Source: Phycisphaerae bacterium
GTDB lineage: Bacteria; Planctomycetota; Phycisphaerae; Sedimentisphaerales; Anaerobacaceae
DNA length: 33,695 nt
NCBI GenBank assembly: GCA_030608075.1
Contig: JAUWIU010000011.1
Location: forward strand, 1-33,695
Direction: 5' to 3'
The notes under the pieces are model-generated. The model did not search any database, had not been told where the DNA came from, and saw nothing but the letters and a program-made list of their open reading frames with translations. Shown here piece by piece: positions 23,717-33,109 of this stretch (positions are counted from its first letter, which is position 1; each line of letters opens with the position of its first letter). A program made the position numbers and the translations under genes.

Positions 23717-25021
23717 ATGTCACATTGGACGCGACGTAAATTCATGAAAGCTGCTGGAGCATCTCTGGTGGCCTCGACGGCGCCTTTTATCATGGCTAAA
23801 GCCAGAAGCGCATCTCCGAACGAGACGGTCAACCATGCTGTTATAGGGGTTGGCGGCATGGGTTCGGGCCATGCGGGACATTTTGCCGGAATGAAAAACT
23901 GTCGGCTGGTGGCCATCTGCGACGTCGACCCGCAGCGCCTCGATAAAACGGCGAAAAATGTCTCGGAGCATGGGAAGGTGAAAAAATACATGGATTATCG
24001 AAAGCTGCTGGAAGACAAGGACATCGACTCGGTCAGCATCGCCACATGCGACCACTGGCACACGCCGGTCGCGCTGGCGGCGATTATGGCAGGCAAGCAC
24101 GTATACGTGGAAAAGCCATCCAGCCATACGGTCCACGAGGCGAACCTTCTGATGAAAGCCGCCAAGCAATACAACAAGTGCGTGCAGCACGGCACGCAGC
24201 GCCGCAGCAGTACGGGTTTCATAGCGGCTGAAAAAGCCCTGCGACAAGGCATCATCGGCGAGGTCTATATGGCAAAAGCAATCAACCACCAGCGGCGGCG
24301 TAAAATAGGCCATGCCATGCCGACCCAGCCACCCACCGGAGTAAATTACGACATGTGGCTGGGACCGGCGCCAAAGGTTCAGTTCACGAAGAACCGTTGG
24401 CATTACAAATGGCACTGGTTCTGGGATTACGGCGGCGGCGACATTGTCAACGACGGCATCCACCACCTCGACCTCGCGATTTGGGGTATGGGCAAGGATA
24501 AACAGTATCCGACTCATATAGTCACGTCAGGGGGACAATTGTGGTACAACGATGACCACGAGACACCAGATACGCAGACAATCGTTTACATCTATCCGGA
24601 CGCGCAAATCATTTATGAGATGCGGTTGTGGACCCCTTATGACATGGGAGGTCACGGCAATGCGACGGTGTTTTACGGCACCGAGGGTTGGCTGGAAGGG
24701 ACCACGGCGCACAAAGGCCAAGAAAAAATCAAAATCCGCCCGGAAGATTACGGCGTGCAGCCAACCGAGGGCAACATGGACAACTTCATCACCGCGGTGC
24801 GGAACGATGACCCGTCAATGCTGAATGCACCGATTGAGGTCGGTGCGGTATCGGCGATTCTGTGTAACCTCGGCAACATCGGCACGCGGTTAGGTAATGC
24901 CTCGCTGACCTACGATGACAAAGGTAAGAAGATTACCCAATGCAGCACCGACTTGAGCAAGGCCAATGCAATGCTGACTAAGCAGTACCGTAAGCCCTAC
25001 ACGCTTGCCTACACGGGATAA
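23717..25021 (+). CDS. Tat-exported Gfo/Idh/MocA family oxidoreductase
   Basis: 434 aa. The N-terminus carries a twin-arginine signal (TRRKFMKAAGAS, residues 5-16) and a hydrophobic stretch ending near 'MAKARSA'. A Rossmann NAD(P)-binding half follows (AVIGVGGMGSGHAGHFAGM, ICDVDPQRL) with the family EKP motif in YVEKPSSH at ~residues 130-137. The second half is the alpha/beta substrate domain (WHYKWHWFWDYGGGDIVNDGIHHLD). Such exported oxidoreductases are very common in Planctomycetota and usually act on sugars or polyols with tightly bound cofactor. The substrate here is unknown. The alpha/beta hydrolase follows 77 bp downstream, perhaps co-transcribed. Confidence 0.92.
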   Translation: MSHWTRRKFMKAAGASLVASTAPFIMAKARSASPNETVNHAVIGVGGMGSGHAGHFAGMKNCRLVAICDVDPQRLDKTAKNVSEHGKVKKYMDYRKLLEDKDIDSVSIATCDHWHTPVALAAIMAGKHVYVEKPSSHTVHEANLLMKAAKQYNKCVQHGTQRRSSTGFIAAEKALRQGIIGEVYMAKAINHQRRRKIGHAMPTQPPTGVNYDMWLGPAPKVQFTKNRWHYKWHWFWDYGGGDIVNDGIHHLDLAIWGMGKDKQYPTHIVTSGGQLWYNDDHETPDTQTIVYIYPDAQIIYEMRLWTPYDMGGHGNATVFYGTEGWLEGTTAHKGQEKIKIRPEDYGVQPTEGNMDNFITAVRNDDPSMLNAPIEVGAVSAILCNLGNIGTRLGNASLTYDDKGKKITQCSTDLSKANAMLTKQYRKPYTLAYTG

Positions 25022-25098
25022 GCGCCTATCAAGTGAGTGTTGAAGCTATCATTGCCGAGTGGTTACGGCTGGACCCCAGGTTTTGTGAAGTAATTGTT

Positions 25099-26040
25099 AT
25101 GCAGACTATCTGGCACCGGCAAAAAGTGAATCATAGGGTAGTCGCAACGAGGATGGCTACAGCACTGGCGAGCCTTTTGGTGGTCGTTGGATGCCGCGAC
25201 AAAGGTAATAGTGCAGGGCCTGAGATGACTTCAGGCCCTATAGCTGCCACGGCCGTTTCAACTGACGGAGTTCCAATTCATTATCGAGTGCAGGGAACCG
25301 GCACGCCGGCGTTGGTGTTTGTCCACGGCTGGTCTTGTGACAGCAGCTATTGGAATGCGCAATTGACTCACTTCAGTAAGCAGTATCAAGTGGTTACTAT
25401 CGACCTGGCAGGTCATGGCAAGTCAGGGCTTGAGCGGGCAGAATGGACTATTACAGCATTTGCCAGGGATGTTGCAGCGGTCGTTAACAAACTCCATCTC
25501 AACCAGGTTGTGCTCGTAGGACACTCTATGGGAGCCGACGTCATTGTGGAGACAACGCGACAGATACCCCGGCCTGTGATAGGACTGGTTGTGGTAGATG
25601 CCTTTCGCAGTCTGAAAACGCAGACTCAAGAACAAATCAAGCGATTCATTATGCCCTTCCGTGCCAATTTTGCAGAAACGACCGACAGGTTTGTGCGGAG
25701 CTTGTTTGCGCCCACGTCAGAGCCTGACTTGGTAGAAGAGACCGCCCTGGACATGTCGACAGCTCCTCGCGAGGTCGCCCTGGCTTGCCTCGAGGCCTTA
25801 CATCAATGGCGGAGTGAGGAATTAACAGAGGCTCTGGGGAAGGTAACCGTGCCAATTGTAGCCATCAATTCGGATATGAGGCCTTGCGATGTGCAGGGTT
25901 TTCAGAGCACCTTCCCGACTTTCAAATTCATAATCATGTCAGGTGTGGGCCACTTCGTAATGATGGAAGACCCAGAAACATTCAACCAGCTCCTTGCCGA
26001 CACCGTGAAAGAGCTAAAGGCCGCAGCCACTCCACCGTAG
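25099..26040 (+). CDS. Alpha/beta hydrolase, predicted lipoprotein
   Basis: 313 aa from ATG 25099. The N-terminus is basic and then hydrophobic (ATALASLLVVVGC), giving a lipobox V-V-G-C with the modified cysteine at residue 32. Membrane anchoring outside the cytoplasm is therefore likely. The hydrolase fold shows LVFVHGWSCDSSYW (oxyanion region), the nucleophile elbow VGHSMGAD with Ser143, and the catalytic His in GVGHFVMMEDP. The substrate is unknown; esterase or lactonase types are all possible. A GTG at 25033 would add an N-terminal stretch that masks the lipoprotein signal, so I rejected it. Confidence 0.87.
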   Translation: MQTIWHRQKVNHRVVATRMATALASLLVVVGCRDKGNSAGPEMTSGPIAATAVSTDGVPIHYRVQGTGTPALVFVHGWSCDSSYWNAQLTHFSKQYQVVTIDLAGHGKSGLERAEWTITAFARDVAAVVNKLHLNQVVLVGHSMGADVIVETTRQIPRPVIGLVVVDAFRSLKTQTQEQIKRFIMPFRANFAETTDRFVRSLFAPTSEPDLVEETALDMSTAPREVALACLEALHQWRSEELTEALGKVTVPIVAINSDMRPCDVQGFQSTFPTFKFIIMSGVGHFVMMEDPETFNQLLADTVKELKAAATPP

Positions 26041-26093: not shown

Positions 26094-27684
26094 TTAACTG
26101 TCAAGAATTCTTTCAACCTTTCCTTGGTCCACATCCATCACATACTGAATTCCGCTGACCTGGGCAGCCTCATTTGTCAAGGCCGCTATGTCATCCCTGG
26201 TTATGTGTTTCAGAGCAAACTTGCGACAACCAGCCATTAGCTGACGTAAGCCCTGGACCAGGCGCTCGTAGTAGGTGTAAAGCCCCAGGGCGCCGGTCGG
26301 GAGCTTTTCGAATTCCTTGTCGCCTAATTCCCTGCGGAGCATGCCTGAGGTCACAAATATTTCATCTTTCGAGCTGCCGAAGCGTTCGATGTACACCGGC
26401 ACCTGGTGTTCATCAATCGTGCGTCCGATTGTTTTACCTACCATCGCGGCGGCTATTGGCGCCCGGGCCATTCCAATCAGCTTCACAAACGGTGCACCGA
26501 GAGCAAGTCCTTTGAAGATTTGGTCTTCAAAAGCAAAGCCACCGGCTAAAGCCAGTGCAGGCAGATACCCGTCCTTGCCGGCAATACGTTTGGCATACCG
26601 ATACAAAAGCGAGTGCAGGTGCACAGGAGGAATACCCCACTCATTCATCATCCGCCAGGGGCTCATACCGGTGCCGCCGCCCGCACCATCGACAGTTAAA
26701 AGGTCGAGTTTGTACCGCGAAGCAAACAAAACCGCCCTTGCCAGGTCCGCGGGCCGATAAGCTCCGGTTTTTAGAAAGACGTATTTGGCACCGGCATTAC
26801 GCAGCTCCTCCACCCGCTTGGCAAATGATTCCTTGGTTACCATACCCACGCGTGAATGCCTTTCAAATTCTTTGAACGCGCCTCGTTCAAAAGCCTTGAT
26901 AACATCCGGGTCAGTCGGGTCCGGCAGGACCACATAACCGCGCTCGTATAACAGTTGGGCCTTTTTAAGGTCAGTGATTTTCACTTCCCCGCCGATATCC
27001 TTGGCACCCTGTCCCCACTTGAGCTCCACGCACTCAACTCCGAGTTTTTTCTATGGCATATTCCTGCACCCCAAGCCGGGTATCCTCAACGTTTGCCTGT
27101 ACGATGATTGCGCCGTAGCCGTCTCGTTGATGGTCTTTATAGAGCTTCACGCGGCGTTTGAGGTCGGCAGTATCGACCACCCGGCCGTTCTTGATAACAG
27201 CCTCAGGGTCCATTCCTACAACGTTTTCGCCGATGGTCAGGCCGGTGCCTGCTAAGGCAGAGCCGATGGCCAGACCTTCCCAGTTGTTCTTGGCGATATT
27301 TGTCGAACCAATTCCCGGAATATGCCAGGGACAGCGATACTTTATCCCTTTATCATGACCGAAGGCAATTTCCAGGTTCACAGCAGGAAAGATGGCTTTG
27401 TCGCTATCTGGTTCAATGCCGTGTGCGCCCACAGCGGTTCCCATAATGTTGAAGTGTGAATAATCAACCGGATAAGTCTTTTCGGCAGCGGCGGTGACCA
27501 TACCGAAAGGTTGTGGATAAATAACTTCGTGGCCGCGGTAGGCGCTCTTGCCTATCTCACACATACCGATACAGCCGTCCACACATGTAACACACATACC
27601 CGAGGCGGGTACAACCGAACCTTCTGTTCTGTTCTTTGTTAAGGTTGCCGCTGAGGCGTTTATCTTTGAAAACGTAAGTGACAT
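26094..27684 (-). pseudogene. Glutamate-synthase-like FMN protein, frameshifted at an A6 tract
   Basis: Two frames make one protein of about 530 aa. The first (27684 to 27034) has a Cys cluster C-x2-C-x3-C-x3-C near residue 31 and the start of the FMN barrel, ending 'VQEYAIEK' then TRS-stop. The second continues as GVECVELKWGQGAKDIGG and carries VDGAGGGTGMSPWRM and LALAGGFAFEDQIFKGLALGA, the FMN/GltB2-type barrel. Removing one A from the A6 run (T6 at 27045-27050 on the plus strand) restores the frame exactly. Unlike true glutamate synthase, no CHxNxCPxG [3Fe-4S] motif is seen after GLALGAPFVKLIG. It is the last gene of the redox operon and 20 bases after the iron-sulfur gene. A real lesion or a homopolymer error are both possible. 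Confidence 0.8.
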
Positions 27685-27704: not shown

Positions 27705-28385
27705 TTATTTATCTTTCTCTATCTCACACGCTACACAAGGGTCCATGTAGCACATCATATCGTCAAACTGTTCTTTCTCGATGCAGGGCGGAGTAAGATT
27801 TGCACAGGCCCCGCAAATTGCTTTTTCGGGTTCGTTGTATGTGCATCGAAGCTGGCAGGCCGGGCATACATACATGCAGCCGCCGCACAACCGGCATACA
27901 TCAGATTTGATGTCAAACGGCGTACCGATGCTTCTTTTCTCGCCTCGATTGCGGAAACCAATGGCCTTGGCCATCATTTGTTCTTCGCACATTCGAACAC
28001 AAAGACCACAAAGGATGCAATCTTCGTACTCTTGTCTGAAACGCTGTTGGCGAATACCGTGGGATGCAGCAAGGTCCTGGATTATTTTAGACTGGGGACA
28101 TGAAGCCAGCAGCAGTTCCAAAATCATTCTCCGGGCCTTTAGCACTCTTGCCGATGCCGTTCGCACCTTGAGTCCTTCCTCGGCTGGATAGGTGCATGAG
28201 GAAACCAGTTTTGCCTTCGGTCCTTCTCCAATCTCCACCACACAAAGCCGGCAGGCCCCGTATGCCGACAGCCCGTCCATATGGCAGAGTGTAGGAACGG
28301 GAAACCCAATAAATCTTGCAGCTTCCAGCAGGGTGGTGCCTTTTTCGACCGAAACATCCAAACCATTTATTTTCAATGTTATCAT
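27705..28385 (-). CDS. HydA-N/NuoG-like iron-sulfur subunit without a catalytic domain
   Basis: 226 aa from ATG 28385, which overlaps the upstream stop (ATGA). Residues 1-70 are a plant-type [2Fe-2S] domain with Cys34, Cys45, Cys48 and Cys64. A linker typical of NuoG/HydA (RRMILELLLASCPQ) follows. Then come two [4Fe-4S] motifs: CILCGLCVRMC (~114-124) and CRLCGGCMYVCPAC. A further Cys-rich tail (CGAC, CYMDPCVAC) may hold another cluster. This is the electron-wire half of an [FeFe]-hydrogenase or NuoG-type subunit, but no H-cluster or molybdopterin domain is attached. It would pass electrons between the NuoF-like flavin and a separate partner, plausibly the adjacent FMN protein. Confidence 0.88.
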   Translation of the reverse strand: MITLKINGLDVSVEKGTTLLEAARFIGFPVPTLCHMDGLSAYGACRLCVVEIGEGPKAKLVSSCTYPAEEGLKVRTASARVLKARRMILELLLASCPQSKIIQDLAASHGIRQQRFRQEYEDCILCGLCVRMCEEQMMAKAIGFRNRGEKRSIGTPFDIKSDVCRLCGGCMYVCPACQLRCTYNEPEKAICGACANLTPPCIEKEQFDDMMCYMDPCVACEIEKDK

Positions 28386-32574: not shown

Positions 32575-32868
32575 CTATTGGTATTCCTCGCAATGCCACA
32601 CGCCCCCTTCGGGTTTTGGAAAAACACAGGTTCGGCGGTTCTCACAATCGCTGCACAGTCCGATGAATTTGGTTGAATCTTTCTCCTTAGCGCCAGCAGA
32701 GCCTGTCGCCGCCAACTGCTTTTTTCCAGGAGTCTTTATAAAAGAGGCTTCTTCAATCTCGAACTCTTCGCAATAAAAGACAGGTTTGTCAGGTTCTCGT
32801 CGAAATGTGCAGGACGAGGCATTCTTGCAGCTCGAACAGAGCCCAAGGTATCTCATATCTTTTGACAT
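32575..32868 (-). CDS. 97-aa protein with duplicated four-Cys motif
   Basis: Two copies of the same ~30-residue unit: 'YLGLCSSCKNASSCTFRR...FYCEEF' (residues ~6-36) and 'FIGLCSDCENRRTCVFPK...WHCEEY' (~68-97), joined by a Lys/Ala-rich linker. Each has C-x2-C-x5-C and a later C-E-E, suggesting one metal or iron-sulfur site per copy. The ATG 32868 is preceded by AAGGA with proper spacing; a longer frame reaching 33105 has an implausible N-terminus that runs into a repeat. It is the first gene of the redox operon, directly before the NuoE-like gene. I do not recognise a named family; an electron-carrier, metal-delivery or assembly role is only a guess. Confidence 0.8.
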   Translation of the reverse strand: MSKDMRYLGLCSSCKNASSCTFRREPDKPVFYCEEFEIEEASFIKTPGKKQLAATGSAGAKEKDSTKFIGLCSDCENRRTCVFPKPEGGVWHCEEYQ

Positions 32869-33057
32869 GGCTAATTCCTTACTCTGCGCTTCGTGATTAC
32901 CTGAGACATCGCAAAAACCATACCACTTGTTGAACACGGAAACGTACCGCCACTGACACTTGGCTCGAAAGCGAGTGCAGCGAGGAAATTTCGCACCTAA
33001 TCGAACAGAATCAGTCAATTTGATGAAATGAATTTTTTTGATGCGACCGGTTTCAGC

Positions 33058-33099
33058 CCTGCCTTCGCAGGAGCAAGCTTGCCCCCGTGGAAACGGGGG
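33058..33099. repeat. Cluster of three small hairpins (REP-like element)
   Basis: Consecutive: CCTGC-CTTC-GCAGG (33058-33071), the perfect palindrome GCAAGCTTGC (33073-33082) and CCCCCGT-GGAA-ACGGGGG (33082-33099). It lies upstream of the redox operon on its 5' side. It looks like an interspersed intergenic element and not a terminator, because no T-run follows. Confidence 0.6.
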
Positions 33100-33109
33100 T
33101 AGCACACAG

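Follow-up and report, generated by a model that had tools for sequence, protein, structure and literature searches.

The operon and its interrupted FMN-barrel gene

The window, that is, the whole stretch of DNA analysed (33,695 nucleotides), carries on its reverse strand a set of genes for NuoE-, NuoF- and NuoG-N-like subunits followed by a gene for an FMN-barrel protein related to glutamate synthase. The features are listed below.

26094..27029 (-): C-terminal part (about residues 219-529) of the FMN-barrel glutamate-synthase-like protein; PF01645 E=7e-10; family-profile residues 207-529
26442..26495 (-): APFVKLIGMARAPIAAAM, at the position of the GltB [3Fe-4S] loop (alignment to GltB)
26658..26690 (-): DGAGGGTGMSP, counterpart of GltB GHDGGTGASP, glycine-rich FMN-barrel loop (alignment to GltB)
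27034..27065 (-): frameshift region splitting the FMN-barrel gene; extra base in an A-run, intact copies in relatives
27034..27684 (-): N-terminal part (about residues 1-213) of the same FMN-barrel protein, in another frame; 90-91% identity to intact relatives; profile residues 1-225
27559..27594 (-): C-x2-C-x3-C-x3-C motif (CVTCVDGCIGMC), predicted [4Fe-4S] site; in 75/76 close and 20/20 distant homologues
27705..28385 (-): NuoG-N/HoxU-like (BfuA-like) subunit with [2Fe-2S], ferredoxin-like 2x[4Fe-4S] and a Cys-rich tail; PF13510, PF12838
28382..31717 (-): NuoF (BfuB/HydB-like) fused to a GltD-like Fer4_20 + FAD/NAD(P) domain; PF01512, PF10589, PF14691, PF07992
31683..32645 (-): NuoE (BfuC-like) [2Fe-2S] subunit with a Cys-rich C-terminal extension; PF01257 E=2e-46
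32575..33105 (-): small Cys-rich protein upstream of NuoE, true start probably inside the ORF; no Pfam match

The ORF at 26094-27029 covers the C-terminal 58% or so of a protein of about 529 residues. DNA alignment locates one surplus base in the A-run of the window near positions 27045-27050, and a profile search of the whole source genome recovered the FMN-barrel protein as two segments, one covering residues 1-225 and the other 207-529. In homologues the protein is encoded by an uninterrupted ORF of about 525-549 residues: a whole-genome search identified five relatives with one ORF of 527-529 residues, the first 213 of which are 82-91% identical to the window, and a more distant relative is 546 residues long. 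The frameshift thus rules out the 311-residue ORF as a natural whole protein. The GTG at 27029 was likewise rejected as the true start, this codon being internal to the longer conserved protein. Full-length identity within the family amounts to 73-92% across many phyla, indicating that the ORF is real beyond chance and suggesting, by inference, horizontal spread. As the source assembly (1.5 Mb) is only 67% complete, a sequencing or assembly error is the simplest reading of the frameshift. Although the break is there in the assembled sequence, it is improbable that the gene is broken in the organism itself and the system on its way to being lost: an extra A within an A-run is a typical error in a MAG of this completeness, both halves are conserved at the level of the family (86-89% identity to a relative) and the adjoining genes are intact.

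A scan of 84,980 species genomes provided the 80 closest loci, in which conservation was assessed. In every one the FMN gene comes after a NuoG-N-like gene and, as far as the contigs extend, NuoE and NuoF lie upstream with the same orientation; NuoF is often a NuoF-GltD fusion, as in the window. By record title, the operon occurs in Planctomycetota, Zixibacteria, KSB1, Ignavibacteria, deltaproteobacteria, Acidobacteria, Bacteroidetes, Latescibacteria, Armatimonadetes and others. A histidine kinase gene and one for a sigma-54 response regulator are often encountered ahead of it. No glutaminase partner was found for the FMN-barrel protein. The locus is a real, conserved combination of known modules for which we found no description: searches of the open-licence literature, papers on BfuABC included, yielded no account of a NuoEFG plus FMN glutamate-synthase-like operon, and an older or subscription paper may exist.

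Other observations concern the surroundings. Homologues of the small Cys-rich protein (CSSCKNASSC..., LCSDCENRRTC...) are encoded just upstream of NuoE in many loci; the protein may bind metal or have a regulatory role in the system. The Cys-rich, zinc-ribbon-like extension of NuoE (about 110 residues) is kept in most family loci. PPDK_N (ATP-binding) proteins recur beside the operon (L022, L039, L043, L045, L055, L058, L061, L067), with a receiver domain in one checked case. In the window, the region beside the operon on the opposite strand (23717-26040, +) encodes, as judged by eye, a Gfo/Idh-type oxidoreductase with a Tat-like signal and an alpha/beta hydrolase.

The FMN-barrel protein compared with GltB

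PF01645 is matched by the window fragment and by an intact relative (E=1e-11) above the curated cut-off, over profile positions 185-303 only. The relative (529 residues) shows no other Pfam domain, in particular no glutaminase and no GXGXG. No NCBIfam family matches the protein, no PDB chain was matched in phmmer or profile hmmsearch searches, and hhalign of the family against GltB returned a probability of 49%. By these measures, the FMN-barrel protein is a divergent PF01645 family. Its FMN-site motifs, KxxQGAK..GG and DGxGGTGMSP, agree with those of GltB on alignment, in keeping with the initial annotation, which had considered the barrel motifs clear.

In an AF2 model of the intact relative (mean pLDDT 76, pTM 0.80) the barrel is confident and the N-terminus unplaced: residues 1-70, modelled from a shallow alignment (Neff 1.5), have a pLDDT of about 30, and the model does not put the N-terminal cluster beside the FMN. 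The predicted fold is an FMN TIM barrel, of the expected FMN-barrel superfamily. Its best matches (VIA-align) are FMN-dependent alpha-hydroxyacid oxidases, with Z of about 25-26 over 300-320 residues and 11-16% identity, a similarity that says nothing on the substrate. At the presumed place of the catalytic His/Arg pair that follows the FMN-binding strand of the oxidases, the family has DGAGGGTGMSP, as in GltB. GltS is not among the top 50 fold matches listed, an absence that is itself uninformative.

The initial annotation had also reported that the segment binding the [3Fe-4S] cluster of glutamate synthase (CHxNxCPxG) is missing from the ORF, and this proved correct. Canonical GltB from related genomes carries GCxLLRKCHxGxCPxG after the barrel. 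In profile-profile and merged alignments, the GltB stretch LGAEQFGFGTAALVTLGCxLLRKCHxGxCPxGIATQ pairs with the Cys-free LGAPFVKLIGMARAPIAAAMVGKTIG, and a CHxNxC-like motif is lacking in all 76 intact homologues. Neither the GltB alignment nor these homologues reveal ligands of the [3Fe-4S] type elsewhere in the chain, where the N-terminal cluster of cysteines is the only conserved one. The sole conserved cysteines of the family, C31, C34, C38 and C42, form the C-x2-C-x3-C-x3-C motif in 75 of the 76 homologues; the exception is locus L019, whose gene is also that of L004 and has Ser instead of C34. The genome of this locus has no GltB, and GDH genes flank its operon on both sides. One of the two patterns used to scan for the close loci included two of the motif cysteines; the 20 further, distant copies (39-69% identity), every one with the motif, are free of this bias, since they were found by a whole-length profile search. 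The N-terminal Cys cluster described earlier is therefore real, but was misplaced: it lies outside 26094-27029, in the upstream ORF, because the gene is split in two and 27034-27684 carries the N-terminus. The four cysteines are predicted to bind an Fe-S cluster that probably replaces the [3Fe-4S] cluster and is itself probably of the [4Fe-4S] type.

The protein is thus not a standard glutamate synthase, and this part of the original interpretation is supported. It shares with GltB an FMN barrel with KxxQGAK..GG and DGGTGxSP-type motifs and, possibly, glutamate chemistry. Unlike GltB, it lacks the [3Fe-4S] cysteines, the glutaminase domain and the GXGXG domain, has an additional four-Cys motif at the N-terminus, measures about 529 instead of about 1500 residues and is partnered with NuoEFG-like subunits.

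The NuoEFG-like subunits

NuoF occurs in two forms. The short form (about 616-680 residues, n=16) has a HydB-like C-terminal 2x[4Fe-4S] part; in the long form (about 1040-1130 residues, n=41), to which the window protein belongs, this part is replaced by Fer4_20 and an FAD domain. The best PDB matches of NuoF are 7t2r_B, 8a6t_B and 9n5u_A, HydB-type chains of bifurcating hydrogenases. The solved chain nearest to NuoG-N is 9mqx_A (247 residues).

Several features of the Bfu family are recognizable. NuoE has the four Cys of the BfuC [2Fe-2S] site, NuoF the BfuB NADH/FMN domain with the B1 [4Fe-4S] (PF01512, PF10589) and NuoG-N the A1 [2Fe-2S] (PF13510). The B2 ligands, which are reported to be a conserved mark of bifurcating BfuB that homologues without bifurcation lack (PMC9304861), are present as His-x5-Cys-x4-Cys in 62 of 62 BfuB-like proteins, and the window has the same motif. 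Other features are missing or altered. A motif survey found the A2 His/Cys3 motif in none of the NuoG-N proteins listed. The four-Cys set of the N-terminal B5 [2Fe-2S] is variable in the family and incomplete in the window (VIPTGTC, three Cys). The C-terminal B3/B4 clusters, present in the short-form proteins listed, give way in the window to Fer4_20 and the GltD-like FAD domain. With A2 absent, B5 incomplete and B3/B4 replaced, the NuoEFG part is Bfu-like by its anatomy and not a strict Bfu member.

The resemblance to BfuABC/HydABC (PMC9304861) lies in the combination of NuoE, NuoF with B1 and B2, and a NuoG-N-like subunit that would feed a third-substrate subunit. Besides the A2, B5 and B3/B4 differences, the systems differ in that the third-substrate subunit is here an FMN barrel; PMC9304861 mentions neither such a subunit nor "glutamate". 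The B3/B4 replacement has already been described: in sub-type I BfuB of Hydrogenedentota [FeFe]-hydrogenases these clusters are replaced by DPD_II and an FAD/NAD(P) domain (PMC11406978), as in the NuoF-GltD of the window. The partner there is the [FeFe]-hydrogenase BfuA, whereas here it is a short BfuA-like protein together with the FMN barrel. The StnABC transhydrogenase (PMC10482914) also joins a HydBC-like core with a GltD-like NADPH domain; in contrast to the present system, that domain resides on the NuoG-like StnC instead of NuoF, and there is no FMN-barrel subunit.

Links to glutamate and proposed function

Within 10 kb of the operon, 10 of the 80 loci, from several phyla, contain a total of 11 GDH-family genes (PF00208/PF02812). 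At a density of 0.42-0.59 GDH-family genes per Mb, the 1.25 Mb covered by the loci would be expected to contain only 0.5-0.7 (Poisson P<1e-8). Four of the 11 were confirmed by Pfam (PF00208 + PF02812), and in other cases whole-genome PF00208 searches gave matches at the same places. In L031 and L041 the GDH gene sits inside the operon, flanked by the genes for the small Cys protein and NuoE; in L019 and L038 it comes immediately after the FMN gene. GDH-family genes are found in 32 of the 35 operon genomes, indicating that glutamate can be made without the FMN-barrel complex.

Canonical GltB, scored as PF01645 at E<=1e-20, co-occurs with the operon in 10 of the 35 genomes and is missing from 25; it was found in none of the seven operon genomes whose records are titled "chromosome". 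In the Planctomycetota sample, GltB is present in 2 of 12 operon genomes versus 170 of 282 others (Fisher P=0.005), or in 2 of 10 once two incomplete genomes are set aside (P=0.02). Of the genomes with any FMN-barrel family member, 9 of 38 have GltB, versus 163 of 256 of those without one. As the genomes are related and phylogeny is ignored, these comparisons are no more than suggestive. Lineage or anaerobic life style may be the cause of this scarcity. A split glutamate synthase with a separate GXGXG subunit was considered and is unlikely, as GXGXG is absent from all 24 GltB-less operon genomes searched.

In light of the GDH genes and of the scarcity of GltB, the suggestion in the initial annotation that loss of the cluster points away from glutamate is unsupported. 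The role of the [3Fe-4S] cluster is to transfer electrons rather than to bind substrate, and the N-terminal cysteines are its apparent replacement; lack of the cluster therefore does not exclude glutamate. We infer that glutamate/2-oxoglutarate is the best-supported candidate substrate.

The proposed assembly would be a soluble, NADH-linked flavin/Fe-S complex built from four different subunits: NuoE, NuoF(-GltD), NuoG-N and the FMN barrel, the latter being catalytic. NADH would reduce the FMN of NuoF, and the clusters of NuoG-N would relay the electrons to the N-terminal cluster in the FMN-barrel subunit, which would carry them singly to the barrel FMN. This would exchange hydride with the substrate, the most likely pair being glutamate and 2-oxoglutarate plus ammonium, via 2-iminoglutarate. 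A second branch would probably involve NADP(H) at the GltD-like FAD in the fusion form, as in the window, and ferredoxin at B3/B4 in the short HydB-like form. Electron bifurcation or confurcation might then couple the reaction. Redox potentials are about -130 mV for glutamate/2-oxoglutarate + NH4+, -300 mV for NADH and -450 mV for ferredoxin; at these values, reductive amination with NADH could drive the reduction of ferredoxin, or ferredoxin could assist NAD+-linked oxidation of glutamate. Both directions are compatible with the sequence, from which they cannot be told apart.

We advance the scheme as a whole (the four-part complex, the Cys cluster in place of [3Fe-4S], glutamate as likely substrate, bifurcation as a possibility) tentatively, as plausible but short of probable. 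Its narrowest version, a Bfu-like NADH/ferredoxin/NADPH complex whose glutaminase-free FMN barrel would serve as a bifurcating or confurcating, ammonium-dependent glutamate synthase/dehydrogenase replacing GltB in many anaerobes, is unlikely. Against the scheme stand the missing or altered A2, B5 and (window) B3/B4, which define Bfu, and the existence of standalone paralogues without NuoEFG, implying that the barrel does not always need these partners. Such paralogues (L121-L137, 39-63% identity) occur in other Planctomycetota, two per genome in several genomes of one family resembling anammox bacteria. AmtB and PII genes lie near L136, haem-oxygenase-like genes near L122 and L127.

Neighbours of the standalone paralogues such as the haem-oxygenase-like and FAD-linked oxidase genes fit a possible though somewhat doubtful alternative, namely that the complex is as proposed and the substrate of its barrel is a different small carboxylate, amino acid or imino acid. 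N-methylglutamate synthase, with methylamine, provides a parallel, and the GDH-family neighbours would then act on other amino acids, PF00208 spanning Glu, Leu, Phe and Val dehydrogenases. The barrel is also very far from GltB, as seen from the partial PF01645 coverage, the hhalign score and the PDB searches; yet it retains the KxxQGAK flavin-site motif, and the operon genomes are depleted in GltB. A less probable alternative still is that NuoE-NuoF-NuoG-N is an NADH:acceptor diaphorase or transhydrogenase and the FMN protein a subunit for electron transfer or carrier reduction, or else an independent enzyme, with a gene that just happens to lie in the operon. In the fusion form, NuoF-GltD might connect NADH with NADPH unaided, as occurs in Stn with GltD on another subunit (PMC10482914), and FMN-barrel paralogues do occur alone, but the position of NuoG-N directly before the FMN gene, seen across phyla in each of the 80 loci, argues against it, as do barrel residues that are nearly invariant across the family, suggesting a specific substrate.

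If the proposed complex with glutamate as its substrate is correct, many uncultured anaerobes (Planctomycetota, Zixibacteria, Ignavibacteria, deltaproteobacteria and others) would carry a previously undescribed NADH-linked flavin complex, adding a type of third substrate to BfuABC-like enzymes and giving a name to proteins that databases can only label "glutamate-synthase-related". Ammonia assimilation or glutamate oxidation could then be joined to energy conservation, which would explain how genomes without a canonical glutamate synthase may cope. The FMN-barrel complex may thus represent an alternative route of glutamate and ammonia handling in anaerobic bacteria.
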